Shown here: piece by piece, positions 1-64,000 of the stretch
Layout of the letters: each line of letters begins with the position of its first letter
How positions within the stretch are numbered: position 1 is the first letter of the stretch
Origin: Salminus brasiliensis
Lineage: Eukaryota > Chordata > Actinopteri > Characiformes > Bryconidae
Length of the DNA stretch: 64,000 bases
Direction: 5' to 3'
Assembly: GCF_030463535.1 (NCBI RefSeq)
Contig: NC_132894.1
Coordinates: 12,855,433-12,919,432 of the forward strand
Position numbers and translations under genes: made by a program
Notes under the pieces: generated by a model
Told to the model about the DNA's origin: nothing
Databases searched by the model: none
What the model saw: the letters and a program-made list of their open reading frames with translations, nothing else

Positions 1-15173
<15,173 letters not shown>

Positions 15174-16629: not shown

Positions 16630-21804
<5,175 letters not shown>

Positions 21805-26219: not shown

Positions 26220-32361
<6,142 letters not shown>

Positions 32362-43900: not shown

Positions 43901-44253
43901 AGCGGGAACACGCTCTCATTGGTTCAAACTCTCAGCGTTGAGGCTCACCATTGGCCAAGACTGCCTCTGAGTTGGAAGAATAAAGATAAGCCACACAGAC
44001 AGTCTGGTGAAACTGTTTTCTGCAGGATTAATATCTTTCTTGTTCAATTAAATGTTTTTGATGTTAAACAGATGTTTTGCTATTCACTGAGTCATGTCTT
44101 AAAAAGGGAATAATGTCTAATTGCATTGCCAAACACCAGAGGGCGCTCTCAGTAAGAGACACTCTGAGTGTGTGTAACTCCTACTTTGTCCACCAGGAGG
44201 CAGTGGATGTGCGGCTCTGATGGTTAAAAGCTGCTCAGATCAGCTCTGCTCTT
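43901..44253. promoter_or_regulatory. ap1s2 / first 7SL divergent interval
   Basis: About 350 bp between the ap1s2 5' end and the first 7SL gene. It holds two CTCF-like motifs (CACCAGAGGGCGCTCTC at 44134-44150; TCCACCAGGAGGCAGTGG at 44189-44206) and the TATA-like TTAAAAG at 44224-44230. The array-type sequence begins at about 44132. Confidence 0.55.
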
Positions 44254-44550
44254 GCCGGGCGCGGTGGCGCGCGCCTGTAATCCAAGTTACTGGGAGGCTG
44301 AGGCTGGCGGATCGTTTGAGCTCAGGGGTTCTGGGCTGTAGTGGACTATGCCGATCGGGTGTCCGCGCTAAGTTCGGTATCGATATGGTGCTCCTGAGGG
44401 AGCTCGGGACCACCAGGTCGCCTAAAGAGGGGTGAACCGGCCCAGGTCGGAAACGGAGCAGGTCAAAGCCCCCGTGCCGATCAGTAGTGGGATCGCGCCT
44501 GTGAATAGACACTGCAGTGCAGCCTGAACAAGACAGCGGGACTCAGTCTT
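44254..44550 (+). ncRNA. rn7sl: 7SL (SRP) RNA gene, copy 1 (alpha)
   Basis: RNA scaffold of the signal recognition particle, which targets nascent secretory proteins to the ER; made by RNA polymerase III. The 297-nt gene aligns end to end with vertebrate 7SL (human about 299 nt). It has the 5' Alu domain from GCCGGGCGCGGTGGCGCG through TGTAATCC, helix 6 with its GGAG tetraloop (CCTGAG-GGAG-CTCGGG), the SRP54-binding helix 8 (GGTCGGAAACGGAGCAGGTC), GATCAGTAGTGGGATCGCGC, and the 3' Alu half closing at GACTCAGTCTT with a T-run terminator. TTAAAAG sits at -30. It differs from the array consensus at three sites (including CTAAAGAGG for CTAAGGAGG in the helix 7 region). Confidence 0.94.
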
Positions 44551-44660
44551 TTTTTCTTTTTTTTTTTAAATCCTTTAATAAAACTGTGTTCAAATAATAA
44601 TACAAGTTTATTAAAATCGCTTTACATAATTATTTTCAATGTGTGTTTAAGGATTGTTTT

Positions 44661-44970
44661 ACACACACTCCACATAGCATTAATAAAAAGGATGTACTCT
44701 ATATCTTAACACCACAACCAATAGTGAAAACTCTAGATTTACTGGAATATTGTGACAGAAATTTAGTCATTTAATATTTCAGAATTAGTCTGTATTCATT
44801 TCTTGCCTATAAAACTGTACAGAAATGAGAAGATCTTCTCTTTCACTGTTAAATCCTCCTCTTCACTACACTGCCTCCCCGTGGACAAAACGGAACTTTG
44901 CACGCCATCATTTCAACACTTCGTGTTTTCCCCAGCGGGAGGCGCTGTTTACACCGTTACATTTTCATCT
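44661..44970 (+). repeat. Conserved spacer block, copy 1
   Basis: Sequence conserved downstream of alpha and beta 7SL copies, from ACACACTCCAC to TTACATTTTCATCT. It centres on CACTACACTGCCTCCCCGTG, GACAAAACGGAACTTT and GCGGGAGGCGCTGTTTACAC. The last part contains a CTCF-like CCAGCGGGAGGCGCTG. This alpha version has TATAAAACTGTACAG upstream. Frames are not conserved between alpha and beta versions, so it is unlikely to be protein-coding; function unknown. Confidence 0.6.
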
Positions 44971-45286
44971 ACAACTGGAGTCTCAGATACATATTGAATG
45001 CATTGTTGATTTTTATAAATCGGAGAAACTTGAAAGTGTAAACAGATAAACAAGTAATCAAATTAAAGCAAAACTGAACTATGTTCAGTCGTTTAGAAAA
45101 AGCACAAGTTCTTTCTGATTGCTTAATTTCAATACACAAAAATAAAAATGCTAAAAACTCTTGTGCATTCCATATGTTATTTTTTCAATGTGGAAAATTA
45201 AGCAAATAAACACTAATTGCGCATGAAAAGAAAGTAATACTCTTATACTAAATCAAATGTATTATATAATTAGTAGCAGTGGTAGT

Positions 45287-45360
45287 AGAATTATTATTAT
45301 TATTATTATTAATAATAATAACAATAGTAATAATAATAAAAATACATTATACGTTATTAT
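45287..45360. repeat. ATT/AAT trinucleotide microsatellite
   Basis: TTA repeats followed by AATAAT repeats in the alpha spacer; the matching tract in the second alpha unit is at about 62033-62095. Confidence 0.85.
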
Positions 45361-45597
45361 ATTACACAGATCATCATAGCTAAATTTATAATGGTGTTAT
45401 CATTATTGTTGTTATTATTAATATTAAGTCAAAGGGGGTTTTTGAATTGCTTTTTTAGCAAATCAAGCTAGTGCCCAAACCTTTGCACGATGCTGCTCCG
45501 TTTTTTATCATAACTTCAAATCCACTTTCTGTTAGACTCTCTTTGGGTGTGTGTAACTTGTGTGAGTTTGATGGTCGCTTAGACGGACTCTGTTCTC

Positions 45598-45894
45598 GCC
45601 GGGTGCGGTGGCTCGTGCCTGTAATCCAAGTTACTGGGAGGCTGAGGCTGGCGGATCGTTTGAGTTCAGGGGTTCTGGGCTGTAGCGGACTATGGCGATC
45701 GGGTGTCCGCGCTAAGTTCGGTATCGATATGGTGCTCCTGAGGGAGCTCGGGACCACCAGGTCGTCTAAGGAGGGGTGAACCGGCCCAGGTCGGAAACGG
45801 AGCAGGTCAAAGCCCCCGTGCCGATCAGTAGTGGGATCGCGCCTGTGAATAGACACTGCAGTGCAGCCTGAGCAAGACAGCGGGACTCAGTCTT
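45598..45894 (+). ncRNA. rn7sl: 7SL RNA gene, copy 2 (beta)
   Basis: Full length, with flank type beta: no TATA-like box at -30, where the sequence reads TTGATGGTCGC. Seven or so changes from consensus, mainly in the 5' Alu domain (GGTGGCTCGTGCC) and ATGGCGATCGG for ATGCCGATCGG. The S domain is unchanged. Terminator TTTTT. Confidence 0.92.
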
Positions 45895-45989
45895 TTTACA
45901 TATACAGAAAATATCTTTTAATGAAACTCTACTCAAATAATAATAATTTAATAAAAATAGCTTAAATTATTATTTTGTATGTTTGATTA

Positions 45990-46221
45990 AGGATTTGTCA
46001 TACACACACTCCACGTAGCCTAAATAGAACGGCTTCATCTTAACACCCAAACCTGCACAGAAATGAGCAGATCTGTTCTTTCTGACCGCTGTTTTCCGTT
46101 AACTCTCCCTCGTCACTACACTGCCTCCCCGTGGACAAAACGGAACTTTTGTTCGCCGTCATTTCAACAGTTTGTGTTTTCGCCAGCGGGAGACGCTGTT
46201 TACACCGTTACATTTTCATCT
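45990..46221 (+). repeat. Conserved spacer block, copy 2
   Basis: Beta version of the block; the 3' core reads GCGGGAGACGCTGTTTACAC (one change in the CTCF-like core). Confidence 0.55.
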
Positions 46222-46517
46222 ATAACTGAGTCTCAGGAAAAAGACCCCTGTTTCAATTAAATTCATTGTTGATTTATTTTGTTAATCGGAGAAAAAGTGA
46301 AGGTGAAAATAGATGAACAAGTATTCAGGTTCTTAAACTGAAGTAAACTGAACCCATCACATTTTTATAAACATTTTCCGTTTGGGCAAAGCACAATTTC
46401 TTTCTATTTGTTCAAAAACATTGCCACTTTATATCTCCTTTCAATGTGGAAAATTAAGCAAATAAACATAAATTGTGCATGAAAATGTAGTAATACTTTT
46501 ATACTACACCAAATGTA

Positions 46518-46652
46518 TTACTGTTATTATTATTAGTAGTAGTAATAGTAGTAGTAGTAATAATAATGATAATAATAATAATAATACATTATACATAATT
46601 ATATTATACACTCAACCACAACGGCATTTATTATTATTATTATTATTATTAT

Positions 46653-46687
<35 letters not shown>

Positions 46688-46860
46688 ATAATACTAATAA
46701 TACTACTAATACTACTAATAATAATAACAATAACAATAATAATAATAATACATTATACATAATTATATTATATACTCAATCACAACTGCATTTATTATTA
46801 TTATTATTATTATTATTTATATTATTATTATTATTACGATTGCTACACATATTTATATTA
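46518..46860. repeat. Compound TTA/AGT/AAT microsatellites
   Basis: Long alternating trinucleotide tracts (46518-46590, 46627-46755, 46793-46835) in the beta spacer. Equivalent tracts in other units differ in length. Confidence 0.9.
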
Positions 46861-47040
46861 TTATTAATGACAACAGTGGTGACACTTTCTTCTTTTTGTT
46901 CTTCCTCTTTTACTTCTTGAAGGTATTTTGCAGTCAAACGGGGTTGTGATTTGCCTTTCTAGCAATTCTGCGAGCAGTTCCCAAATTGAACAGTCCCAAA
47001 CTGGCCTACACCATTCTTCTTAACTTCCATTACTTAATTA

Positions 47041-49380
47041 AATCAAATCAAATCAAATTTTATTTGTCACATACATAGTCATACACAGTATAACTTGCAG
47101 TGAAATGCTTTTATGACAGTCTGCCCACATCAAAGCTATACAATAAAGATCTACATTTAAACTTAACTAAACCTTAACTTAATGAAGTAAAGTGCAAAAG
47201 TGCAAAAGAAAAATAAATTAAAAAAATAAAAATAGAATAAGTTACATTCAAGTTAAAAAATAAAATATAAAAATATGAAAATATAGAAATATAGAAATAT
47301 AAGCAAAAAAAATACAAATATATATACACAGATGAAATAGTGCGTGTCTGTGTGTGTGTGTATATATATATATGTATGTATACATATGTACATATTTATC
47401 TGTATGTGAGTGTATGTGTGAGTTAAAAAGAAATGTTTTCGTAATTGTCCGTAGTGTGTTTTCCGCGAGCCATGGTTGTGTATTGTAGTGAGTGAGGGTC
47501 CAGTTTATGTATGTAGATTTTTTTAATTTAGTGTCTTAGTCCCTGTCCCCATTCAGGGCACGGATGGCTCGTGGAAAGAAGCTCCTCCTCATTCTCTCTG
47601 TGTTAGCCTTCAGGGTTCTTAAGCGTTTCCCCGAGGGCAACAGAGAAAACAGTCCATTGTTGGGATGACTGGGGTCCTTCACAATCTTCTTGGCCTTGGT
47701 CCAACACCGCTTCTTGTAGATGGACTGCAGGTCAGGAAACTCCATCCTAGTGATTCGCTCTGCTGAACGTCTCACTCGTCGTAGCGCTTGCCTGTCCTGC
47801 TTGGTGCTGTTCCCAAACCAGACTGTGATGTTCCCCGTGAGGATGCTCTCGATGGTGCAGGAGTAGAAGGATCGTAGTACCTTGGAGGGCAGTCTGAAGT
47901 CCCTCAGTCGTCTCAGGTGGTATAGGCGCTGACGAGCCTTCTTCGTTATGGTGTTGATGTGGCAACTCCATGACAATTCCTGAGAGATGGTCACTCCAAG
48001 GTATTTGAAGCTTTCTACCCTATCCACTGCCGTTCCACTGATGTGGACAGGTTGGTAGCTCCTCTGCTGTTTCCTGCTAAAGTCCACAATCAGCTCCTTC
48101 GTTTTGCTGGCATTTAGCTGGAGATTATTATCCTGGCACCAGTTCTCCAGGGTTCTAATCTCTTCCAGGTAGGCCTTCTCTTTATTTCCTGAGATCAGGC
48201 CCACCACAACTGTGTCGTCAGCAAACTTAATGATGTTGGTGGAGCTGGAAGTGGCTTTGCAGTCTGAGGTGTACAGCGAGTACAGCAGAGGGCTAAGGAC
48301 ACAGCCCTGAGGGGCTCCGGTACTGAGGGTGAGGGTGGGTGAGACATGCTTGCCTACCCGAACAGCTTGTGGTCTGTTTGTGAGGAAGTTGGAGATCCAG
48401 TCACAGATGGATGGGTGGAGACCTAGATCTTCCAGCTTTGTGGTGAGTCTTGAGGGAATAATAATGTTAAAAGCTGAACTGTAGTCCACAAACAGCATTT
48501 TAACATAATTACCCCTCCCAGCATCCAGATGTGTCATCGACATGTGGAGAAGGTGAGCGATGGCATCATCTGTGGAACGGTTTGGACGGTATGCAAACTG
48601 AAACGGGTCCAGGGTGTCGGGCAGTGTGGATGTGATGAAGTCTCTCACCAGCTTCTCGAAGCACTTCATCACGACTGATGTGAGGGCGACTGGGCGGTAG
48701 TCGTTGAGGCAGGCTGGCTGTGGTTTCTTCAGGACAGGAACGATGATGGACTGTTTGAAGCACGATGGAACAATCCCCTGCGTCAGTGAGAGATTAAAGA
48801 TGTCCGTGAATACCGGGGCTAGCTGATCTGTACAGGCTTTTAGGACTCGACCACAGATGCCATCGGGTCCCGCAGCCTTCCTGGTATTCACTCTCCTGAA
48901 CACCCGCCGTACATCTCTCTCTGTGATGGTGAAGGCTCTTTGTTCTCTGACGTGCTCCTCTATGTCAGCTGTGCCGGTGTTACTGTAGTTAACGTTGCCG
49001 GCTGCAGCATCAAAGCGAGCATAAAAGGTGTTTAGCTCGTTCGCCAGAGATAAGTCTGCACATCCCAGTCCACAGGGTGGGCTCCTATAGTCCGTTATTG
49101 TTCTCAGTCCCTGCCACAGGCTCCTAGAGTCGTTTTGCTGGAACTGGGACTCTAGTTTCCTCCCGTAGCGCTGCTTCGCCTCCTTTACCGCCTTCCTTAC
49201 TCCATATGACGCAGACTTGTATTCCTGCATATCTCCGCTGATCAGTCCCGTGTTGTAGGCAGCAGTGCGGGCATTCATAGCCTCCCGGATGCTTTTATCC
49301 ACCCAGGGCTTCTGGTTGGGAAATGTTTTGACTGTAGATTTCTGGACGGTGTCGTCCGCTACTTTCCCGATAAAACCCGA
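47041..49380 (-). mobile_element. 5'-truncated L2/CR1-like LINE
   Basis: A 2.34-kb non-LTR retrotransposon inserted in a beta/gamma junction. On the minus strand it ends with GTGACAAATAAAATTTGATT and further TTTGA-type tail repeats (47041-47065), the usual 3' end of a fish L2-like family. The 5' end stops inside ORF2, so the endonuclease is missing. TAATTA is duplicated at 47035-47040 and 49381-49386. Gamma units at about 52939 and 56420 read straight through the same site (CTTAATTACTTTACGATATC), showing the empty target. Confidence 0.9.
47536..49302 (-). CDS. LINE ORF2 reverse transcriptase (N-terminally truncated)
   Basis: 588 codons without a stop; the frame stays open upstream of this Met to the truncation point near 49380. 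Reverse transcriptase motifs are in order: RKAAGPDG (142-149), DYRPVAL (201-207), catalytic VDYSSAF (272-278), GAPQGCVLSPLLYSLYTSD (329-347), catalytic FADD (360-363) and ESFKYLGV. The C-terminal RMRRSFFPRAIRALN is typical of the L2/CR1/Jockey group. The apurinic endonuclease domain is absent. The clean frame implies a young insertion; it cannot move on its own without the missing N-terminus. Confidence 0.9.
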   Translation of the reverse strand: MDKSIREAMNARTAAYNTGLISGDMQEYKSASYGVRKAVKEAKQRYGRKLESQFQQNDSRSLWQGLRTITDYRSPPCGLGCADLSLANELNTFYARFDAAAGNVNYSNTGTADIEEHVREQRAFTITERDVRRVFRRVNTRKAAGPDGICGRVLKACTDQLAPVFTDIFNLSLTQGIVPSCFKQSIIVPVLKKPQPACLNDYRPVALTSVVMKCFEKLVRDFITSTLPDTLDPFQFAYRPNRSTDDAIAHLLHMSMTHLDAGRGNYVKMLFVDYSSAFNIIIPSRLTTKLEDLGLHPSICDWISNFLTNRPQAVRVGKHVSPTLTLSTGAPQGCVLSPLLYSLYTSDCKATSSSTNIIKFADDTVVVGLISGNKEKAYLEEIRTLENWCQDNNLQLNASKTKELIVDFSRKQQRSYQPVHISGTAVDRVESFKYLGVTISQELSWSCHINTITKKARQRLYHLRRLRDFRLPSKVLRSFYSCTIESILTGNITVWFGNSTKQDRQALRRVRRSAERITRMEFPDLQSIYKKRCWTKAKKIVKDPSHPNNGLFSLLPSGKRLRTLKANTERMRRSFFPRAIRALNGDRD

Positions 49381-49579
49381 TAATTACTTTATGATATCAT
49401 CTCCTACTGTCTCACCATTGCCTTTTTCTGCTTTTTAAGTGCTCAAACATTTCTAAAAGTTCTCAAAGATCTCAAATTTCCCAAACCCTTGCATGGTGCT
49501 GCTCTGTTTTTATAAAACCCCAAAGGATACTTTCTGTTAGGTGTGTGTAAGTGTGTGTGCCTGTTAAATCTTCCTCTGG

Positions 49580-49586
49580 TTAAAAG
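49580..49586 (+). promoter_or_regulatory. TATA-like box of 7SL copy 3
   Basis: TTAAAAG starting exactly 30 bp before the RNA start. Identical boxes at the same distance: 44224-44230 (copy 1), 53156-53162 (copy 5), 56640-56646 (copy 7) and 60958-60964 (copy 9). Absent from copies 2, 4, 6, 8 and 10. Role inferred from Pol III upstream promoters. Confidence 0.6.
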
Positions 49587-49609
49587 CTGCTCAGATCAGC
49601 TCTCCTTTC

Positions 49610-49906
49610 GCCGGGCATGGTGGCGCGTGCCTGTAATCCAAGTTGCTGGGAGGCTGAGGCTGGCGGATCGTTTGAGTTCAGGGGTTCTGGGCTGTAGTGG
49701 ACTATGCCAATCGGGTGTCCGCACTAAGTTCGGTATCGATATGGTGCTCTTGAGGGAGCTCGGGACCACCAGGTCGTCTAAGGAGGGATGAACCGGCCCA
49801 GGTCGGAAGCGGAGCAGGTCAAAACCCCCGTGCCGATCAGTAGTGGGATCGCGCCTGTGAATAGACACTGCAGTGCAGCTTGAACAAGACAGCGGGACTC
49901 AGTCTT
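49610..49906 (+). ncRNA. rn7sl: 7SL RNA gene, copy 3 (gamma)
   Basis: The most diverged copy (about nine changes). These include GGGCATGG at the 5' end, ATGCCAATCGG, GCTCTTGAG in helix 6, and CGGAAGCGG for CGGAAACGG at the helix 8 tip (GAAA to GAAG, still fitting GNAR). Length and terminator are intact. It may be functional or drifting. Confidence 0.9.
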
Positions 49907-50403
49907 TTTCTGCCACTCTGATCCTAAACAGCCTGTTGCGGTAAAGTAATAATAAGACCGATTTAAAATAAAGCTTTTAAGTTTTATGAGTTTGTGTTTT
50001 CATAAGTTTACTCATTGCCTTGTATCATAACGGTTATTGTAAAATGACATGTCTCTGTACTTAATCAAGTACCAACTAACAATCGGTTGCCTTGAGTCAT
50101 GTGACTTCAAGCAAGTGACTTTATTTCATTACAAAGAGAAATATATTGCAAAATATGGTAAGTCATTTCTTTTTTGTTTTTGGACACCTAACTCATCAAC
50201 CCTGTTACACTTAAAATGTATTTATAAATTTCAAATATATATGAAATTGTTAATAAACTCTTTGTTGAGAACATGAGCTGCTTCGCCACGTCCTGCTTTA
50301 CATTTCTAGCAGTAGCAGATTTAGCATATTAGAGGTGTACTCACGTTTGTTGTCTTATGTATAAGTTCTATTAGTAGTTTATAAAATACCAAGATTTTTC
50401 ATA

Positions 50404-51240
50404 ATGACCTGCTACTGAACAAGACAAAGGAGATGATGGAGGACTTTTACAGGACTAGGCCACTCTCCCAACCTGTCTCTACTGAGGGGGCTTGTTGTGG
50501 AGATGGTTAAGACTTACAGGTATCTCAGACTGCACCTGGATAATAAGTTGGACTGGTCAGTCAACACATCCTGTCCAGAAAGGGCCAGAGTCAGCTCTAC
50601 TTTCTGAGGAGGTTGGTGTCCTTCAACATCTGTAAGAAGCTCCTGCAGATGATCTACCAGACGGTTGTGTCCAGCTGTCTTTTCCATGCTGTGGTGTGCT
50701 GGGGAGGAAGCATGTAAAAGAAAGACGGGACTGATCAGACATGCTGGGTCAGTGGTTGGTGTAGAACTGGACTCTGTGGTTTAAGTGGCAGAGAGGAGCC
50801 CACTGCACAAACTGCTCTCCATCATGGACGATGATGGTCACCCACTACACACCATCATTATGCACCAAAGGAGCAAGTTCAGTGGCAGGTTGCTGTCACA
50901 GAGCTGCTCTACAGACAGACTCAGGAGATCCTTTGTTTCGAGAGCCATCAGACTCTTCAACTCTTCCCAGTGGGGCCAGAAGAGGGAGGAGAATGGATGA
51001 GGACTGAGTCTCTTTTGTTTAATCCTAAATTTAATCTGAACTATTTTTCACTTTACTGTACATCATGTACATCTGCACTCCTGGACATTACTGACACTTT
51101 ACTTAAATACCAATATGTGCACATATTTGTTCAGTATTGTCTTCTGTCTGCTTCATTCCTGTCATGGTTTCAGATCCATATTTTTACATTTATTCTATTT
51201 ATTGTTATTATTGTATTGTATTAATGTGCTGTATTGTGCA
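50404..51240 (+). mobile_element. LINE 3' remnant in gamma unit, copy 1
   Basis: Decayed end of a non-LTR retrotransposon ORF2. Translations such as LLQMIYQTVVSSCL and the terminal SFVSRAIRLFNSSQ match the C-terminal pattern of the L2/CR1 group, but stops and frameshifts interrupt it. The remnant recurs in each full gamma spacer, so it was amplified with the 7SL units. It is not the same family copy as the LINE at 47041-49380 and lies in the opposite orientation. Confidence 0.7.
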
Positions 51241-51380
51241 ATTGCTACTGTCTATCTATCAATATGGTACATTAAGCAAATACACAGCATAAAAATGTAA
51301 TAATGTTCTTATACTAAACCAAATGTATTGTTATTATTATTAGTTGTATTCATAGTACTATTAATACGATTTTTTTAAAA

Positions 51381-51411
<31 letters not shown>

Positions 51412-51646
51412 ACAACAATAATAATGAAAACAGCAGTAACCCTTTCTTCTTCTACTTCCTGGAGATATTTTGCAGTCAAGGGTTTTTTTTTTATTTGTCT
51501 TTTTAGGAAATCAAGCTAGTGCCCAAACCTTTGCATGATGCTGCTCCGTTTTTTATCATAACTCCAAACGACACTTTCTGTTAGACTCTCTTTGGGTGTG
51601 TGTAACTTGTGTGAGTTTGATGGTCGCTTAGACTGACTCTGCTCTC

Positions 51647-51943
51647 GCCGGGCGCGGTGGCTCGCGCCTGTAATCCAAGTTACTGGGAGGCTGAGGCTGG
51701 CGGATCGTTTGAGCTCAGGGGTTCTGGGCTGTAGTGGACTATGCCGATCGGGTGTACGCATTAAGTTCGGTATCGATATGGTGATCCTGAGGGAGCTCGG
51801 GACCACCAGGTCGTCTAAGGAGGGGTGAACCGGCCCAGGTCGGAAACGGAGCAGGTCAAAGCCCCCGTGCCGATCAGTAGTGGGATCGCGCCTGTGAATA
51901 GACACTGCAGTGCAGCCTGAGCAAGACAGCGGGACTCAGTCTT
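51647..51943 (+). ncRNA. rn7sl: 7SL RNA gene, copy 4 (beta)
   Basis: Beta flanks on both sides. Carries GGCTCGCGCC in the Alu domain, GTACGCATTA for GTCCGCACTA and GGTGATCCTG in helix 6; the GGAG tetraloop and helix 8 are intact. Confidence 0.92.
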
Positions 51944-52050
51944 TTTACATATACAGAAAATATCCTTTAATGAAACTCTACTCAAATAATAATAATTTAA
52001 TAAAAATAGCTTAAATTATTATTTTGTATGTTTGATTAAGGATTTGTCAT

Positions 52051-52270
52051 ACACACACTCCACGTAGCCTAAATAGAACGGCTTCATCTTAACACCCAAA
52101 CCTGCACAGAAATGAGCAGATCTGTTCTTTCTGACCGCTGTTTTCCGTTAACTCTCCCTCGTCACTACACTGCCTCCCCGTGGACAAAACGGAACTTTTG
52201 TTCGCCGTCATTTCAACAGTTTGTGTTTTCGCCAGCGGGAGAGGCTGTTTACACCGTTACATTTTCATCT
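52051..52270 (+). repeat. Conserved spacer block, copy 3
   Basis: Beta version following 7SL-4, nearly identical to the block after 7SL-2 but reading GGGAGAGGCTGTT at the CTCF-like core. Confidence 0.55.
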
Positions 52271-52572
52271 ATAACTGAGACTCAGGAAAAAGACCCCTGT
52301 TTCAATTAAATTCATTGTTGATTTATTTTGTTAATCGGAGAAAAAGTGAAGGTGAAAATAGATGAACAAGTATTCAGGTTCTTAAACTGAAGTAAACTGA
52401 ACCCATCACATTTTTATAAACATTTTCCGTTTGGGCAAAGCACAATTTCTTTCCATTTGTTCAATTTAAAAACATTGCCACGTTATATTTTCTTTTAATG
52501 TGGAAAATTAAGCAAATAAACATTAATTGTGCATGAAAATTTAGTAATACTTTTATACTACATCAAATGTAT

Positions 52573-52599
52573 TACTGTTATTATTATTATTATTATTAT

Positions 52600-52636
<37 letters not shown>

Positions 52637-52740
52637 TGTATTAGTAGTAGTAATAATAATAATAATAATAATAATAATACATTATACATAATTATATTAT
52701 ACACTCAATCACAACTGCATTTATTATTATTATTATTACG
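52573..52740. repeat. TTA/AGT/AAT microsatellites
   Basis: Counterpart of the 46518-46860 tract, but shorter, in the second beta spacer. Confidence 0.9.
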
Positions 52741-53185
52741 ATTGCTACACATATTTATATTATTATTAATGACAACAGTGGTGACACTTTCTTCTTTTTG
52801 TTCTTCCTCTTTTACTTCTTGAAGGTATTTTGCAGTCAAACGGGGGTTGTGATTTGCCTTTCTAGCAATTCTGCGAGCAGTTCCCAAATTGAACAGTCCC
52901 AAACTGGCCTACACCATTCTTCTTAACTTCCATTACTTAATTACTTTACGATATCAGGAAATGAGTACCTGGAAATCTCCTACTGTCTCACCATTGCCTT
53001 TTTCTGCTTTTTAAGTGCTCAAACATTTCTAAAAGTTCTCAAAGATCTCAAATTTCCCAAACCCTTGCATGGTGCTGCTCTGTTTTTATAAAACCCCAAA
53101 GGATACTTTCTGTTAGGTGTGTGTAAGTGTGTGTGCCTGTTAAATCTTCCTCTGGTTAAAAGCTGCTCAGATCAGCTCTGCTCTC

Positions 53186-53482
53186 GCCGGGCGCGGTGGC
53201 GCGCGCCTGTAATCCAAGTTACTGGGAGGCTGAGGCTGGCGGATTGTTTGAGCTCAGGGGTTCTGGGCTGTAGTGGACTATGCCGATCGGGTGTCCGCAC
53301 TAAGTTCGGTATCGATATGGTGCTCCTGAGGGAGCTCGGGACCACCAGGTCGCCTAAGGAAGGGTGAACCGGCCCAGGTCGGAAACGGAGCAGGTCAAAG
53401 CCCCCGTGCCGATCAGTAGTGGGATCGCGCCTGTGAATAGACACTGCAGTGCAGCCTGAGCAAGACAGCGGGACTCAGTCTT
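53186..53482 (+). ncRNA. rn7sl: 7SL RNA gene, copy 5 (gamma)
   Basis: Four changes from consensus: GGATTGTTT, GTCGCCTAAGG, GGAAGGGTG and CTGAGCAAG. All structural landmarks present; TTAAAAG at -30; TTTTT terminator. Confidence 0.93.
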
Positions 53483-53959
53483 TTTCTGCCACTCTGATCC
53501 CAAACAGCCTGTTGCGTTAAAGTAATAATAAGACCGATTTAAAATTAAGCTTTATATTCATGCATTAATAGTGCAAAACATATCATTTTCAACTTTCTGT
53601 CAACCCTGTTATGATGGGGGGAAACAGCAGGAAATTACAATCGGTTGCCTTGAGTCATGTGACTTTAAGCAAGTGACTTTATTTCATTACAAAGAGGAAT
53701 ATAATGCAAAATATGGTAAGTCATATCTTTTTTGTTTTTGGACACCTAACTCATCAACCCCGTTACACTTAAAATGTATTCATAAAATTCAAATATATAT
53801 GAAATTGTTAATAAACTCTTTGTTGAGAACATGAGCTGCTTCGCCACGTCCTTCTTTACATTTCTAGCAGTAACAGATTTAGCATATTAGAGGTGTACTC
53901 ACGTTTGTTGTCTTATGTATAAGTTCTATTAGTAGTTTATAAAATACCAAGATTTGTCA

Positions 53960-54800: not shown

Positions 54801-54886
54801 CTATCTATCAATATGGTAAATTAAGCAAATACACAGCATAAAAATGTAATAATTTTCTTATACTAAACCAAATGTATTGTTATTAT

Positions 54887-54950
54887 TATTAGTTGTATTC
54901 ATAGTACTATTAATACGATTTAAAAAAACTACTACTACTACTACTACTAC

Positions 54951-54985
<35 letters not shown>
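54887..54985. repeat. ACT/AAT trinucleotide microsatellite
   Basis: Gamma-spacer tract of ACT then AAT repeats; equivalents at about 51380-51425 and 58608-58660 differ in repeat number. Confidence 0.9.
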
Positions 54986-54986
<1 letters not shown>

Positions 54987-55213
54987 TAATAATGAAAACA
55001 GCAGTAACCCTTTCTTCTTCTACTTCCTGGAGATATGTTGCAGTCAAAGGGTTTTTTTTATTTGTCTTTTTAGTAATTCAAGCTAGTGCCCAAACCTTTG
55101 CATGATGCTGCTCCGTTTTTTATCATAACTTCAAATCACACTTTCTGTTAGACTCTCTTTGGGTGTGTGTAACTTGTGTGAGTTTGATGGTCGCTTAGAC
55201 GGACTCTGCTTTC

Positions 55214-55510
55214 GCCGGGCGCGGTGGCGCGCGCCTGTAATCCAAGTTACTGGGAGGCTGAGGCTGGCGGATTGTTTGAGCTCAGGGGTTCTGGGCTGTC
55301 GTGGACTATGCCGATCGGGTGTCCGCACTAAGTTCAGTATCGATATGGTGCTCCTGAGGGAGCTCGGGACCACCAGGTCGTCTAAGGAGGGGTGAACCGG
55401 CCCAGGTCGGAAACGGAGCAGGTCAAAACCCCCGTGCCGATCAGTAGTGGGATCGCGCCTGTGAATAGACACTGCAGTGCAGCCTGAACAAGACAGCGGG
55501 ACTCAGTCTT
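55214..55510 (+). ncRNA. rn7sl: 7SL RNA gene, copy 6 (beta)
   Basis: Four changes from consensus: GGATTGTTT, CTGTCGTGG, GTTCAGTATC and TCAAAACCC. GGATTGTTT is shared with the adjacent copy 5 although the flanks differ, a sign of sequence exchange between neighbours. Confidence 0.92.
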
Positions 55511-55610
55511 TTTACATATACAGAAAATATCCTTTAATGAAACTGTTCTCAAATAATAATAATTTAATAAAAATAGCTTAAATTATTATTTTGTATGTTT
55601 GATTAAGGAT

Positions 55611-55837
55611 TTGTCATACACACACTCCACGTAGCCTAAATAGAACGGCTTCATCTTAACACCCAAACCTGCACAGAAATGAGCAGATCTGTTCTTTCTG
55701 ACCGCTGTTTTCCGTTAACTCTCCCTCGTCACTACACTGCCTCCCCGTGGACAAAACGGAACTTTTGTTCGCCGTCATTTCAACAGTTTGTGTTTTCGCC
55801 AGCGGGAGGCGCTGTTTACACCGTTACATTTTCATCT
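55611..55837 (+). repeat. Conserved spacer block, copy 4
   Basis: Beta version after 7SL-6, with the intact GCGGGAGGCGCTGTTTACAC core. Confidence 0.55.
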
Positions 55838-56089
55838 ATAACTGGGGTCTCAGGAAAAAGACCCCTGTTTCAATTAAATTCATTGTTGATTTATTTTGTT
55901 AATCGGAGAAAAAGTGAAGGTGAAAATAGATGAACAAGTATTCAGGTTCTTAAACTGAAGTAAACTGAACCCATCACATTTTTATAAACATTTTCCGTTT
56001 GGGCAAAGCACAATTTCTTTCTATTTGTTGAATTTAAAAACATTGCCACTTTATATCTCCTTTCAATGTGGAAAATTAAGCAAATAAAC

Positions 56090-56185
56090 ATATTATTATT
56101 ATTAGTAGTAGTAGTTGTAGTAGTAATAATAATGATAATAATAATGCATTATACATAATTATATTATATACTCAATCACAACTGC

Positions 56186-56234
<49 letters not shown>

Positions 56235-56235
56235 G
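56090..56235. repeat. TTA/AGT/AAT microsatellites
   Basis: Shortest of the beta-spacer tracts, ending in a TTA run of about 48 bp at 56187-56234. Confidence 0.9.
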
Positions 56236-56669
56236 CTACACATATTTATATTATTATTAATGACAACAGTGGTGACACTTTCTTCTTTTTGTTCTTCCTC
56301 TTTTACTTCTTGAAGGTATTTAAACGGGGGTTGTGATTTGCCTTTCTAGCAATTCTGCGAGCAGTTCCCAAATTGAACAGTCCCAAACTGGCCTACACCA
56401 TTCTTCTTAACTTCCATTACTTAATTACTTTACGATATCAAGAAATGAGTACCTGGAAATCTCCTACTGTCTCACCATTGCCTTTTTCTGCTTTTTAAGT
56501 GCTCAAACATTTCTAAAAGTTCTCAAAGATCTCAAATTTCCCAAACCCTTGCATGGTGCTGCTCTGTTTTTATAAAACCCCAAAGGATACTTTCTGTTAG
56601 GTGTGTGTAAGTGTGTGTGCCTGTTAAATCTTCCTCTGGTTAAAAGCTGCTCAGATCAGCTCTGCTCTT

Positions 56670-56966
56670 GCCGGGCGCGGTGGCGCGCGCCTGTAATCCA
56701 AGTTACAGGGAGGCTGAGGCTGGTGGATCGTTTGAGCTCAGGGGTTCTGGGCTGTAGTGGACTATGCCGATCGGGTGTCCGCACTAAGTTCGGTATCGAT
56801 ATGGTGCTCCTGAGGGAGCTCGGGACCACCAGGTCGTCTAAGGAGGGGTGAACCGGCCCAGGTCGGAAACGGAGCAGGTCAAAGCCCCCGTGCCGATCAG
56901 TAGTGGGATCGCGCCTGTGAATAGACACTGCAGTGCAGCCTGAACAAGACAGCGAGACTCAGTCTT
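56670..56966 (+). ncRNA. rn7sl: 7SL RNA gene, copy 7 (gamma)
   Basis: Three changes: GTTACAGGG, CTGGTGGATC and GCGAGACTC near the 3' end. TTAAAAG at -30. Confidence 0.93.
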
Positions 56967-57639
56967 TTTCTGCCACTCTGATCCTAAACAGCCTGTTGCG
57001 GTAAAGTAATAATAAGACCGATTTAAAATTAAGCTTTTAAGTTTTATGAGTTTGTGTTTTCATAAGTTTACTCATTGCCTTGTATCATAACGGTTATTGT
57101 AAAATGACATGTCTCTGGGCTTAATCAAGTACCAACTACTAAATAACTAGTTCAATAACTGAACAAGGAAAACACCACTGATAAATTATAAATTGTAACT
57201 AATTAAAAGATACAACAATTATATATTCATGCATTAATAGTGCAGAAAATATCATTTTCAATTTTCTGTCAACCCTGTTATGATGGGGGGAAACAGCAGG
57301 AAATTACAATCGGTTGCCTTGAGTCATGTGACTTTAAGCAAGTGACTTTATTTCATTACAAAGAGGAATATAATGCAAAATATGGTAAATCATATCTTTT
57401 TTTGTTTTTGGACACCTAACTCATCAACCCCGTTACACTTAAAATGTATTAAAAAAATTCAAATATATATGAAATTGTTAATAAACTCTTTGTTGAGAAC
57501 ATGAGCTGCTTCGCCACGTCCTTCTTTACATTTCTAGCAGTAGCAGATTTGGCATATTAGAGTTGTACTCACGTTTGTTGTCTTATGTATAAGTTCTATT
57601 AGTAGTTTATAAAATACCAAGATTTTTCATAATAACCTG

Positions 57640-58480
57640 CTACTGAACAAGACAAAGGAGATGATGGAGGACATTTACAGGACTAGGCCACTCTCCCAAC
57701 CTGTCTCTACTGAGGGGGGTTGTTGTGGAGATGGTTAAGAACTTACAGGTATCTCAGACTGCACCTGGATAATAAGTTGGACTGGTCAGTCAACACATCC
57801 TGTCCAGAAAGGGCCAGAGTCAGCTCTACTTTCTGAGGAGGCTGGGGTCCTTCAACATCTGTAAGAAGCTCCTGCAGATGATCTACCAGATGGTGGTGTC
57901 CAGCTGTCTTTTCTATGCTGTGGTGTGCTGGGGTAGAAGCATGTAAAAGAAAGACGGGACTGATCAGACATGCTGGGTCAGTGGTTGGTGTAGAACTGGA
58001 CTCTGTGGTTTAAGTGCCAGAGAGGAGCCCACTGCACAAACTGCTCTCCATCATGGACGATGATGATCACCCACTACACACCATCATTATGGACCAAAGG
58101 AGCAAGTTCAGTGGTAGGTTGCTGTCACAGAGCTGCTCTACAGACAGACTCAGGAGATCCTTTGTTCCAAGAGCCATCAGGCTCTTCAACTCTTCCCAGT
58201 GGGGCCAGAAGAGGGAGGAGAATGGATGAGGACTGAGTCTCTTTTGTTTAATCCTAAATTTAATCTGCACTATTTTTCACTTTACTGTACATCCTGTACA
58301 TCTGCACACCTGGACATTACTGACACTTTACTTAAATACCAATATATGCAAATATGTGTTCAGTATTGTCTTCTGTCTGCTTCATTCCTGTCATGGTTTC
58401 AGATCCATATTTTTACATTTATTCTATATATTGTTATTATTGTATTATATTAGTGTGCTGTATTGTGCAATTGCTACTGT
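57640..58480 (+). mobile_element. LINE 3' remnant in gamma unit, copy 3
   Basis: Third co-amplified copy of the decayed LINE tail, with several private substitutions (for example SFVPRAIRLFNSSQ at its end). Confidence 0.7.
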
Positions 58481-58878
58481 CTATCTATCAATATGGTACA
58501 TTAAGCAAATACACAGCATAAAAATGTAATAATTTTCTTATACTAAACCAAATGTATTGTTATTATTATTAGTTGTATTCATAGTACTATTAATACGATT
58601 TTTAAAAACTACTACTACTACTACTACTACTAATAATAATAATAATAATAATAATAATGAAAACAGCAGTAACCCTTGCTTCTTCTACTTCCTGGAGATA
58701 TTTTGCATTCAAAGGGTTTTTTTTATTTGTCTTTTTAGCAAATCAAGCTAGTGCCCAAACCTTTGCATGATGCTGCTCCGTTTTTTATCATAACTTCAAA
58801 TCACACTTTCTGTTAGACTCTCTTTGGGTGTGTGTAACTTGTGTGAGTTTTATGGTCGCTTAGACGGACTCTGTTTTC

Positions 58879-59175
58879 GCCGGGCGCGGTGGCGCGTGCC
58901 TGTAATCCAAGTTACTGGGAGGCTGAGGCTGGCGAATCGTTTGAGCTCAGGGGTTCTGGGCTGTAGTGGACTATGCCGATCGGGTGTCCGCACTAAGTTC
59001 GGTATCGATATGGTGCTCCTGAGGGAGCTCGGGACCACCAGGTCGTCTAAGGAGGGGTGAACCGGCCCAGATCGGAAACGGAGCAGGTCAAAGCCCCCGT
59101 GCCGATCAGTAGTGGGATCGCGCCTGTGAATAGACACTGCAGTGCAGCCTGAACAAGACAGCGGGACTCAGTCTT
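58879..59175 (+). ncRNA. rn7sl: 7SL RNA gene, copy 8 (beta upstream, gamma downstream)
   Basis: Hybrid context: the upstream flank is beta (TTAGACGGACTCTG, no TTAAAAG) while the downstream flank is gamma (TTTTTCTGCCACTCTGATCC). Changes: GCGTGCCTG, GGCGAATCG and CCAGATCGG. The third lies in the base of helix 8. Confidence 0.92.
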
Positions 59176-59801
59176 TTTCTGCCACTCTGATCCTAAACAG
59201 CCTGTTGCGGTAAAGTAATAATAAGACCGATTTAAAATAAAGCTTTTAAGTTTTATGAGTTTGTGTTTTCATAAGTTTACTCATTGCCTTGTATCATAAC
59301 GGTTATTGTAAAATGACATGTCTCTGGGCTTAATCAAGTACCAACTACTAAATAACTAGTTCAATAACTGAACAAGGAAAACACCACTGATAAATTATAA
59401 AATGTAACTAATTAAAAGATACAACAATTATATATTCATGCATTAATAGTGCAGAAAATATCATTTTGAATTTTCTGTCAACCCTGTTATGATGGGGGGA
59501 AACAGCAGGAAATTACAATCGGTTGCCTTGAGTCATGTGACTTTAAGCAAGTGACTTTATTTCATTACAAAGAGGAATATAATGTAAAATATGGTAAGTT
59601 ATTTCTTTTTTGTTTTGGACACCTAACTCATCAACCCCGTTACACTTAAATTATGCAGATAGAAATAATTAATTATAAAAATTCAAATATACATGAAATT
59701 GTTAATAAACTCCTTGTTGAGAACATGAGCTGCTTCGTCACGTCCTGCTTTACATTTCTAGCAGTAGCAGATTTAGCATATTAATCATCAGCACGGTTCT
59801 C

Positions 59802-59838
59802 GTCAACCCTGTTAGTGCTCTGTTGTAACAGGGTTGAC
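59802..59838. repeat. 13-bp perfect inverted repeat
   Basis: GTCAACCCTGTTA and TAACAGGGTTGAC separated by 11 bp. The CAACCCTGTTA word also occurs once, unpaired, in gamma spacers (about 53600, 57268, 59480, 62938). Confidence 0.8.
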
Positions 59839-59939
59839 ACTATTGCACTGTGGCCGTGTGGTTGTATTCATAGCAAATTAAGAATAAAATGTATACATCT
59901 ATTCTACTGTATTTAAATAATTGCATACATTTTTACATT

Positions 59940-60830
59940 AAATACATTTCAGAACATATACATAAGACAACAAACGTGAGTACACCTCTGGGCAATATCA
60001 CTTCAATATCAATTCATTTAAAATTACATTACATTAGTTGAACAGGTCTGAATTTGCTTTCATGTAAAATTTAAAACAAACTGTTTATTATTATATTATT
60101 GAGATTCGAGCATTTTATTTCTTAAATAATTAGTGTGTCCACATTTATTTTTAATGACAGACTCAAGCTTTCACTCAGTTTCAATGTTGCACAAATGTCT
60201 GGAGAGATTTTGTGCCATTCGTTAGAGACAATATTTTTTCAGCCGCTTTTTGCTGGAGGGGCTGTGTTGCACTACTATTTTCCTTAAAATGCCCCAAAGG
60301 TGTTCTATTAGATTCGAGTCAGGTGACATACCTGACCATGTCATGATTTATACTTTTTCTCTTTATTAGAAACTCTCGTTATCGTTATCATGCTGGAATT
60401 TTTCTCTTCTGCATAGCTTCTGGAGACTGAAGTCATCTTGTCAGACAGTATTTTGGTATATCCACAGACATTCATAGTGCCATCTATAAATATTACTTGG
60501 CCACCAATCTTCTTGTATCCTGTTCCATCTCTGTGAAGTTTCACAATCAGATTTTTCAGTTCCTGTCTGGCAATTCATTTCCACGTGGCGCCATGATGCA
60601 GGTCTGCAGATAGACACAGTCCATGTTTCTGATGTTGGACTCGTGAGTACAGCCGAGGACAGGCGAACACTGTTAAAAGTATAACTTCCTAGAGGCACTT
60701 TTGAAGGTTCTTTAATTTGAAACTGTTTAGCATTGTGAAAAGAGAGAACATCCACACTGATGGTGAAGACGGAGACTCTCCTGGGATAATGAAGAACTCC
60801 GTGAAAGAAATGTGTAGTTTATAAAATTCC
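59940..60830 (-). mobile_element. Decayed Tc1-like transposon
   Basis: The minus strand shows ordered but broken pieces of a Tc1-family transposase: VKLHRDGTGYKKI-like helix-turn-helix (60542-60505), then VIFIDGTMNVCGYTKILSDK (about 60490-60430), and further on MSPDSNLIEHLWGILR (about 60336-60290), the family's SPDLNPIEHLWG block. Stops, frameshifts and an internal deletion make it inactive. The word GTGTACTCACGTTTGTTG near 59985 also occurs alone in gamma spacers, in opposite orientation, suggesting those spacers keep a deletion derivative. Confidence 0.75.
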
Positions 60831-60987
60831 AAGATTTTTCTGAATTAAATGTTTACTCAATTATCAACACCAGAGGACGCTCTCAGTAAGAGACACTCTG
60901 AGTGTGTGTAACTCCTACTTTGTCCACCAGGAGGCAGTGGATGTGCGGCTCTGATGGTTAAAAGCTGCTCAGATCAACTCTGCTCTC

Positions 60988-61284
60988 GCCGGGCGCGGTG
61001 GCGCGCGCCTGTAATCCAAGTTACTGGGAGGCTGAGGCTGGCGGATCGTTTGAGCTCAGGGGTTCTGGGCTGTAGTGGACTATGCCGATCGGGTGTCCGC
61101 GCTAAGTTCGGTATCGATATGGTGCTCCTGAGGGAGCTCGGGACCACCAGGTCGTCTAAGGAGGGGTGAACCGGCCCAGGTCGGAAACGGAGCAGGTCAA
61201 AGCCCCCGTGCCGATCAGTAGTGGGATCGCGCCTGTGAATAGACACTGCAGTGCAGCCTGAACAAGACAGCGGGACTCAGTCTT
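60988..61284 (+). ncRNA. rn7sl: 7SL RNA gene, copy 9 (alpha)
   Basis: Closest to the array consensus (one change, CGCGCTAAG). Same flanks as copy 1 on both sides, including TTAAAAG at -30 and the longer T-run terminator. Confidence 0.94.
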
Positions 61285-61390
61285 TTTTTCTTTTCTTTTT
61301 TAAATCCTTTAATAAAACTGTGTTCAAATAATAATACAAGTTTATTAAAATCGCTTTACATAATTATTTTCAATGTGTGTTTAAGGATTG

Positions 61391-61706
61391 TTTTACACAC
61401 ACTCCACATAGCATAAATAAAAAGGCTGTACTCTACATCTTAACACCACAACCAATAGTGAAAACTCTAGATTTACTGGAATATTGTGACAGAAATTTTG
61501 TCATTTAATATTTCAGAACTAGTCTGTATTCATTTCTTGCCTATAAAACTGTACAGAAATGAGAAGATCTTCTCTTTCACTGTTAAATCCTCCTCTTCAC
61601 TACACTGCCTCCCCGTGGACAAAACGGAACTTTGCACGCCATCATTTCAACACTTCGTGTTTTCCCCAAAGGGAGGCGCTGTTTACACCGTTACATTTTC
61701 ATCTAC
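61391..61706 (+). repeat. Conserved spacer block, copy 5
   Basis: Alpha version after 7SL-9, almost identical to 44661-44970 but with CCCCAAAGGGAGGCGCTG replacing CCCCAGCGGGAGGCGCTG. Confidence 0.55.
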
Positions 61707-62336
61707 AACTGGAGTCTCAGATACATATTGAATGCATTGTTGATTTTTATAAATCGGAGAAACTTGAAAGTGTAAACAGATAAACAAGTAATTAAATTAA
61801 AGCAAACTGAACTATGTTCAGTCGTTTAGAAAAAGCACAAGTTCTTTCTGATTGCTTAATTTCAATACACAAAAATAAAAATGCTAAAAACTCTTGTGTT
61901 TGTTATTGTTTGTTATGTGTTATTTTTTCAATGTGGAAAATTAAGCAAATAAACACTAATTGCGCATGAAAAGAAAGTAATACTCTTATACTAAATCAAA
62001 TGTATTATATAATTAGTAGCAGTGGTAGTAGAATTATTATTATTATTATTAATAATAATAACAATAGTAATAATAATAAAAATACATTATACGTTATTAT
62101 ATTACACAGGTCATCATAGCTAAATTTATAATGGTGTTATCATTATTGTTGTTATTATTAATATTAAGTCAAAGGGGGGTTTTGAACTGCTTTTTAGCAA
62201 ATCAAGCTAGTGCCCAAACCTTTGCATGATGCTGCTCCGTTTTTTATCATAACTTCAAATCCACTTTCTGTTAGACTCTCTTTGGGTGTGTGTAACTTGT
62301 GTGAGTTTGATGGTCGCTTAGACGGACCCTACTCTT

Positions 62337-62633
62337 GCCGGGCGCGGTGGCGCGTGCCTGTAATCCAAGTTACTGGGAGGCTGAGGCTGGCGGATCGTTT
62401 GAGCTCAGGGGTTCTGGGCTGTAGTGGACTATGCCGATCGGGTGTCCGCACTAAGTTCGGTATCGATATGGTGCTCCTGAGGGAGCTCGGGACCACCAGG
62501 TCGCCTAAGAAGGGGTGAACCGGCCCAGGTCGGAAACGGAGCAGGTCAAAGCCCCCGTGCCGATCAGTAGTGGGATCGCGCCTGTGAATAGACACTGCAG
62601 TGCAGCCTGAACAAGACAGCGGGACTCAGTCTT
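62337..62633 (+). ncRNA. rn7sl: 7SL RNA gene, copy 10 (beta upstream, gamma downstream)
   Basis: Second hybrid-context copy. Changes: GCGTGCCTG (shared with copy 8), GTCGCCTAAG and AAGAAGGGG. Structure and TTTTT terminator intact. Confidence 0.92.
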
Positions 62634-63292
62634 TTTCTGCCACTCTGATCCTAAACAGCCTGTTGCGGTAAAGTAATAATAAGACCGATTTAAAATTAAG
62701 CTTTTAAGTTTTATGAGTTTGTGTTTTCATAAGTTTACTCATTGCCTTGTATCATAACGGTTATTGTAAAATGACATGTCTCTGGGCTTAATCAAGTACC
62801 AACTACTAAATAACTAGTTCAATAACTGAACAAGGAAAACACCACTGATAAATTATAAAATGTAACTAATTAAAAGATACAATAATTATATATTCATACA
62901 TTAATAGTGCAGAAAATATCATTTTCAATTTTCTGTCAACCCTGTTATGATGGGGGGAAACAGCAGGAAATTACAATCGGTTGCCTTGAGTCATGTGACT
63001 TTAAGCAAGTGACTTTATTTCATTACAAAGAGGAATATAATGCAAAATATGGTAAGTCATATTTTTTGTTTTTGGACACCTAACTCATCAACCCCGTTAT
63101 ACTTGTATGTATTCATAAAATTCAAATATATATGAAATTGTTAATAAACTCTTTGTTGAGAACATGAGCTGCTTCGCCACGTCCTTCTTTACATTTCTAG
63201 CAGTAGCAGATTTAGCATATTAGAGGTGTACTCACGTTTCTTGTCTTATGTATAAGTTCTATTAGTAGTTTATAAAATACCAAGATTTTTCA

Positions 63293-64000
63293 TAATAACC
63301 TGCTACTGAACAAGACAAATGAGATGATGGAGGACTTTTACAGGACTAGGCCACTCTCCCAACATGTCCCTACTGAGTGGGGTTGTTGTGGAGATGGTTA
63401 AGAACTTACAGGTATCTCAGACTGCACCTGGATAATAAGTTGGACTGGTCAGTCAACACATCCTGTCCAGAAAGGGCCAGAGTCAGCTCTACTTTCTGAG
63501 GAGGTTGGGGTCCTTCAACATCTGTAAGAAGCTCCTGCAGATGATCTACCAGACGGTGGTGTCCAGCTGTCTTTTCTATGCTGTGGTGTGCTGGGGAGGA
63601 AGCATGTAAAAGAAAGACTGGACTGATCAGACATGCTGGGTCAGTGGTTGGTGTAGAACTGGACTCTGTGGTTTAAGTGGCAGAGAGGAGCCCACTGCAC
63701 AAACTGCTCTCCATCATGGACGATGATGGTCACCCACTACACACCATCATTATGGACCAAAGGAGCAAGTTCAGTGGCAGGTTGCTGTCACAGAGCTGCT
63801 CTACAGACAGACTCAGGAGATCCTTTGTTCCGAGAGCCATCAGGCTCTTCAACTCTTCCCAGTGGGGCCAGAAGAGGGAGGAGAATGGATGAGGACTGAG
63901 TCTCTTTTGTTTAATCCTAAATTGAATCTGAACTACTTTTCACTTTACTGTACATCCTGTACATCTGCACTCCTGGACATTACTGACACTTTACTTAAAT
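63293..64000 (+). mobile_element. LINE 3' remnant in gamma unit, copy 4 (cut by window edge)
   Basis: Fourth copy of the co-amplified LINE tail; it runs off the right edge, so at least one more unit boundary lies beyond. Confidence 0.7.

Follow-up and report, generated by a model that had tools for sequence, protein, structure and literature searches.

A ten-gene 7SL RNA cluster in Salminus brasiliensis belongs to one of two inverted tandem arrays that may be kept alike by exchange within the gene

The window analysed here, a 64,000-nucleotide stretch of contig NC_132894.1 (hereafter C17; C17:12855433-12919432) of the fish Salminus brasiliensis, carries a tandem cluster of genes for 7SL, the RNA of the signal recognition particle (SRP). 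Judged from its sequence, the window is quite probably part of the genome's own 7SL supply, which would comprise two tandem arrays whose copies are kept alike partly by exchange within the gene. 7SL is needed in every cell, and in mammals related copies swamp the active genes; to our knowledge, the upkeep of the animal 7SL supply is little described outside mammals. The copy-specific variants of the two arrays make copy usage, and whether SRP RNA comes in types, readable directly from RNA data, and the array pattern helps to separate likeness by selection from likeness by conversion.

Ten matches to the Rfam family RF00017 (Metazoa_SRP) were found in the window, all on the forward strand and each covering positions 1-299 of 299, with 267.6-284.5 bits (score cut-off, 70 bits) and E-values from 9e-73 to 1.1e-77. 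This bears out the initial annotation, which had proposed ten full-length, direct-strand 7SL genes. No further copy, truncated ones included, was found in the window by the Rfam search at E<=1. The ten genes contain no indels, differ pairwise at 2-16 of 299 sites, and no two are identical. Their length is constant, as had been claimed, but at 299 rather than 297 nucleotides (nt), the Rfam length being made of 295 nt and the first four Ts of the terminator, a T-run of 5 or 7 that is indeed kept in all ten. The GGAG loop of helix 6 is likewise present in ten out of ten copies. In contrast, the helix 8 core GGAAAC, said to be in every copy, is found in nine and altered (A200G) in the copy at window position 49610. 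This is the most divergent gene of the window, with 11 changes relative to the consensus. Matches to mir-1268 overlapping the 7SL 5' end were below the cut-off and were rejected.

The interval originally given for the cluster, 44132..64000, starts at the exact onset of the C-class homology, but its right end is merely the window edge. Array 1 runs on along C17 to 12934347 and holds 17 full-length copies in all, seven of them beyond the window, with a remnant at 12930613-12930734 that has no Rfam match. A second array (array 2) lies on the opposite strand, 0.28 Mb beyond array 1 (C17:13215317-13253956), and holds 21 full-length copies. They are spaced by 1595-1638 bases (a period of about 1.60 kb) except at two intervals, of 4.4 and 5.0 kb, and the full units are 97-100% like one unit. 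All 28 full-length copies outside the window match RF00017 over positions 1-299 of 299; the scores are 267.6-285.8 bits in array 1 versus 252.9-265.1 bits in array 2. Distinct gene sequences number 15 out of 17 in array 1 and 12 out of 21 in array 2. A degenerate copy (98.8 bits) is located near array 2 at 13210948, and no 7SL copy was found in C17:13159433-13185000 or 13285001-13325000.

In the whole assembly (1,066,335,885 bases, 103 contigs), two 299-nt DNA probes, one per array, agreed on 40 matches, every one of them on C17: the 38 full-length copies and two damaged ones. Hence, neither whole-genome probe found an intact copy beyond the two arrays. The best 40 of 53 and the best 40 of 51 first-look candidates were scored; the lowest of the scored matches are partial (83-86%), and they do not include the degenerate copy at 13210948, so that an intact copy elsewhere could escape if diverged. 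A whole-genome Rfam search, in which the best 26 of 12,637 candidates were scored, placed all 26 on C17. C17:12959433-13159432 was covered by the whole-genome searches only. The initial suggestion that the cluster may supply much of the SRP RNA of this species is strengthened, the two arrays holding every intact copy found by both probes. The damaged pair lies at C17:29.02 Mb, about 16 Mb away, with scores of 187.4 and 209.9 bits and a broken Alu-domain 5' end; the two copies lie inverted to each other and enclose two tRNA matches (extract L030, C17:29021500-29028500). A 28-base 7SL pattern searched in viral and genome contig collections gave no match.

Self-BLAST sorted the spacers of the window into classes a, b and c and the upstream ends into classes A, B and C. 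The units follow the order C-c, A-a, B-b, A-a, B-b, A-a, B-b, A-b, C-c, A-b, and in the A-b units (copies 8 and 10) the class changes in or beside the gene. Homology between units reaches up to 1-1.7 kb past the gene on the same strand, and recent duplicates are 99.89% identical over 3,582 bp and 99.70% identical over 8,023 bp. Both arrays arose by tandem duplication at the DNA level, and some of the steps are recent. Units repeated in tandem on one strand, with young duplicates among them, are the mark of an array evolving in concert like ribosomal DNA, to which the cluster had been likened. The likeness holds for array 2, given its copy number, regular period and near-identical units, and less well for array 1, where three spacer classes are mixed.

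The per-site difference between flanks of unlike classes is 0.27-0.57, the highest values being those of flanks that are perhaps not homologous at all, versus 0.02-0.03 between their genes. Seven of the eight informative sites in the window have their rarer allele spread over two or more upstream classes, and 16 of 28 pairs of informative sites fail the four-gamete test. The downstream bb flank difference of 0.139 is inflated by the copy at window position 53186 (C17:12908618), and upstream difference bins past -300 are inflated by copies adjoining insertions. Variants also cross between the arrays, which share seven two-allele polymorphisms versus 1.82 expected (P=0.001). Candidate exchange tracts run both ways: copy 12927115 of array 1 carries alleles common in array 2 at positions 156, 157 and 258, and in the other direction array-1 alleles at 120, 138 and 140 are seen in 13216953 and 13236060, a duplicate pair in array 2. 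Overall, homogenisation, which the initial annotation had offered beside selection, is supported.

In array 2, the gene is more variable than its near flanks at non-CpG sites. Variable non-CpG sites number 18/246 in the gene versus 19/530 in the near flanks (P=0.029), with the excess in nt 1-200, and non-CpG nucleotide diversity (pi) is 0.0197 in the gene versus 0.0079 upstream, 0.0060 downstream and 0.0116 over 900 bases downstream. This is expected if variation enters only where the two arrays share homology. Unlike flanks around alike genes, together with variants that cut across classes and arrays, fit exchange inside the gene, and exchange confined to the gene would account for the class-crossing, array-sharing and flank patterns together. 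Mutations that recurred, variation inherited from before the arrays parted and a degree of selection may also contribute. Separately, nt 201-295 of the gene vary less than the 5' two thirds (6 versus 32 sites in array 1, 1 versus 24 in array 2) despite much pairing with the 5' part, perhaps reflecting a polarity of conversion.

The copies would be separate RNA polymerase III genes with control regions inside the gene; 28 of 38 have a TATA-like TAAAA, and all 38 end in a T5-T7 terminator (T5 in all 21 array-2 copies). The motif GGTTC is found at position 74 in 36/38 copies (19/21 in array 2) and GTGGCGCGC at position 11 in 31/38; we take these regions to be the internal A and B boxes. TAAAA stands at exactly -29 in 7/17 array-1 copies (classes B and C, and copy 12934049) and in 21/21 array-2 copies. 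That it holds the identical position in arrays whose flanks are otherwise unlike points to a TATA-like element. RF00017 scores of array-1 copies with and without TAAAA gave P=0.07, and no difference is claimed. An exact CRE/ATF match was absent from the upstream regions of the 17 array-1 copies and of 3 of the 21 array-2 copies, where only two-mismatch matches were seen. GGAG of helix 6 is kept in 17/17 copies of array 1 and 19/21 of array 2, and GGAAAC of helix 8 in 16/17 and 19/21, both loops presumably having a role in the SRP. The arrays grew by DNA-level tandem duplication, with the 99.9% and 99.7% duplicates as recent steps, and unequal crossing-over and gene conversion within the 299-nt gene, the segment common to every full unit of either array, would keep copies similar across spacer classes and, to a lesser degree, from one array to the other.

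The intact length had also been read as a sign of selection. When all indels are counted, genes differ from flanks (P=0.009 in array 1, 0.047 in array 2). After removal of low-complexity and homopolymer indels, only 5 and 1 flank indels are left and the shortage in genes is not significant (P=0.17 and 1.0), so that constant length was rejected as evidence of selection on each copy. Substitutions do not favour the retention of base pairs. The 32 changes in the window copies comprise 12 that keep a pair, 9 that break one, 6 in loops and 5 at already unmatched pairs, versus random means of 11.3 kept, 11.2 broken (P=0.20 for so few breaks) and 5.5 in loops. The two arrays together have 27 distinct sequences, in which 83.0% of cells are paired versus 83.0% after shuffling, one pair is changed on both sides versus 0.8 in shuffles, and the covariation score of 0.037 is below every shuffle, the low divergence making these tests weak.

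Nor do spacers of the same class diverge freely, as had been stated of the spacers, for they differ at 1.5-2.3% of non-CpG sites. Genes versus whole spacers differ at 0.019 versus 0.015 (class a), 0.025 versus 0.023 (b) and 0.008 versus 0.015 (c) of non-CpG sites, and at 0.110 versus 0.043 (a), 0.058 versus 0.108 (b) and 0 versus 0.065 (c) of CpG sites, class c being one pair of whole spacers. Under selection alone, genes should be far more alike than same-class spacers, which these data do not show. In the near flanks of the 17 array-1 copies, non-CpG pi is higher than in the gene for A (0.033 versus 0.016), C (0.020 versus 0.005) and c (0.015 versus 0.004), and lower for B (0.020 versus 0.032) and b (0.006 versus 0.021). 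For these sets, copy 12908618 was dropped from downstream class b and copy 12934049 from the upstream classes; the class a set is unusable, inflated by 12934049, whose flank soon diverges.

Several of these observations weigh against a functional two-array supply maintained by exchange. The mixed near-flank results of array 1, with flanks more variable in A, C and c and less so in B and b, mean that part of the gene likeness may be selection. The alleles shared between arrays may be ancestral or recurrent, and two of the seven, at 3 and 114, are C/T or G/A at CpG; moreover, P=0.001 is too small, because array 2 copies descend from few duplications. At CpG sites, gene and flank of array 2 do not differ (P=0.42). 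Regarding function, TAAAA is missing from ten of the 17 array-1 genes, all of class A, the helix 6 or helix 8 loop is altered in 5/38 copies (one in array 1, four in array 2), and in 21/21 array-2 copies helix 3 of the Alu domain is mismatched at two neighbouring positions, through sites 9 and 10. Finally, the variants fit the structure no better than chance, so that each copy is a candidate rather than an established working gene.

Between the consensus sequences of the two arrays there are 14 differences, of which 5 are fixed; sites 9, 10, 59, 98 and 241 tell the arrays apart. By sequence, array 1 is the more canonical predicted RNA and array 2 a coherent second type. A possible, though doubtful, explanation is that array 1 alone makes SRP RNA, array 2 being a homogenised satellite that descends from 7SL but has no function. 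The lower bit scores of array 2, its helix 3 mismatches and the changed helix 6 or 8 loop in 4/21 copies would agree with a satellite. However, all 21 copies keep their full length, TAAAA at -29 and a T5 terminator, 19 have the GGTTC box, and nt 201-295 contain one variable site only.

Somewhat less likely, both arrays could be mostly a graveyard, in which one or a few copies make RNA and the others are recent duplicates drifting without constraint. Gene differences about equal to same-class spacer differences, pair breaks at chance level without covariation, and the five copies with altered loops are compatible with such drift. In the miiuy croaker, activity is highest at a single gene, 7SL-23 (PMC11893794), but all eight clustered copies are said there to be infection-sensitive. 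In addition, drift alone does not yield genes that are alike across flank classes 27-57% apart, and the 38 copies here are full length, without indels and with T5-T7 terminators.

Tandem 5S rRNA arrays are homogenised and come in oocyte and somatic types. By analogy, the two arrays could form a dual system of two standing SRP RNA types with differing promoter mixes and stage- or tissue-specific use, conversion between the arrays keeping the rest of the sequence alike; we regard this as improbable. Both systems consist of tandem RNA polymerase III genes with spacers and array-specific sequence types. The 5S arrays make another RNA from another promoter.

That haplotypes or repeats were mis-joined as arrays in the assembly is very improbable: the near-identical duplicates of 3.58 and 8 kb could be so read, but the two regions read contain no N, 15/17 and 12/21 gene sequences are distinct, the three spacer classes come in varied order, and LINE (long interspersed nuclear element) insertions mark particular units. 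Although 7SL is a known source of short interspersed nuclear elements (SINEs) in primates and rodents, retroposed, SINE-like insertions are scarcely credible here, since homology extends up to 1-1.7 kb past the gene on the same strand and the copies are full length with a terminator, no truncated one having been found in the window at E<=1; unlike Alu/B1-type SINEs derived from 7SL, they have the S domain and stand in tandem with long homologous flanks.

A supply in two tandem arrays differs from that of human RN7SL, which belongs to the same RNA and Rfam family and has few active genes with very many related copies in primates; we know of no human RN7SL array of this kind. In fish, a 7SL cluster is already known from the miiuy croaker, with 24 7SL genes, of which eight adjacent ones (7SL-9 to 7SL-16) on chromosome 12 are infection-sensitive; TFIIIC was bound at three of four copies tested, namely 7SL-16 in the cluster and two elsewhere (PMC11893794). 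The same report puts the related copies in primates at over two thousand. Both fish genomes have multiple adjacent 7SL genes, but eight there compare with arrays of 17 and 21 here, 7SL-23, the gene with the highest activity there, lies outside chromosome 12 whereas no intact copy was found here off C17, and spacer classes or conversion are not described in the available text (PMC11893794). The S. brasiliensis arrays are therefore a larger variant, going beyond that partly available account in size, in their two inverted arrays, in the lack of any intact copy found elsewhere, in promoter classes and in the proposed inter-array exchange. Among the titles listed from the openly licensed literature, only PMC11893794 concerned a fish 7SL cluster, which does not show absence from print; the text seen of PMC3160391 mentions 7SL merely as a SINE source. 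The human 1q23.3 tRNA tandem repeat offers another likeness as tandem RNA polymerase III units; according to the text available, it has 7.3-kb GC-rich tRNA units, a CTCF site and copy-number dynamics (PMC4041453), whereas CTCF here amounts to motif matches, before class C copies.

The array begins with a C-class upstream region at 44132..44253 (+), which matches the sequence preceding copy 9 at 98.3% identity over 121 nt. The genes, all on the + strand, are copy 1 at 44254..44552 (C upstream, c downstream; 279.4 bits), copy 2 at 45598..45896 (A/a; 268.4 bits), copy 3 at 49610..49908 (B/b, following a LINE insertion; 267.6 bits), copy 4 at 51647..51945 (A/a; 275.2 bits), copy 5 at 53186..53484 (B/b; 281.0 bits), copy 6 at 55214..55512 (A/a; 275.8 bits), copy 7 at 56670..56968 (B/b; 284.5 bits), copy 8 at 58879..59177 (A upstream, b downstream; 276.8 bits), copy 9 at 60988..61286 (C/c; 281.2 bits) and copy 10 at 62337..62635 (A upstream, b downstream; 278.9 bits). 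TAAAA at -29 of copy 1 is at 44225..44229 (+), and the same element by position precedes copies 3, 5, 7 and 9 (49581-49585, 53157-53161, 56641-56645 and 60959-60963); copies 2, 4 and 6 are without it. Spacer class c occupies 44553..45597, with a second copy, 96.9% identical, at 61287-62336. Class a occupies 45897..49609, interrupted by a LINE, and also 51946-53185 and 55513-56669. Class b is found at 49909..51646, 53485-55213, 56969-58878, in the first ~600 nt of 59178-60987 and from 62636 to the window end, with long matches mostly at 94-98%.

Within the class a spacer, a LINE reverse-transcriptase frame of 615 aa is located at 47536..49383 (-; Pfam RVT_1, 2.3e-30). LINEs are found in array 2 too: an interval there contains an unbroken 1,035-codon frame (extract L016:4427-7531, -) that matches a reverse transcriptase and, weakly, an endonuclease, and a second LINE frame is seen twice (L017:6828-8462 and L015:7721-9355). 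CTCF-like motifs with one mismatch each number 6 in the window versus 0.42 expected. Inside the array they occur only before class C copies (44133-44146, 44190-44203 and 60924-60937), the other three lying outside it (8777, 15376 and 27952). With two of them at the array left edge, they are a possible candidate boundary element.

On the left of array 1, a Clat_adaptor_s exon of an AP-1 sigma adaptor gene gives a Pfam match at 41349-41876 (-), and 42748-43044 (-) is presumably the first exon of that gene. These exons point away from the array, so that array 1 starts about 1.1 kb upstream of the start-codon exon. Further left are a taxilin exon at 19541-19891 (+), the only one of four flanking names to pass the Pfam cut-off, and what we take to be exons of a helicase-like gene (13915-14256, -), a WD40 gene resembling RBBP4/7 (29574-29960, -) and a ZRSR2-like gene (36557-37675, +), a set that resembles human Xp22.2. 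Array 2 stands between intermediate-filament (keratin-like) exons, which it adjoins, and a C6ORF120 homologue at L020:312-929 (extracts L013, L014, L015 and L024).

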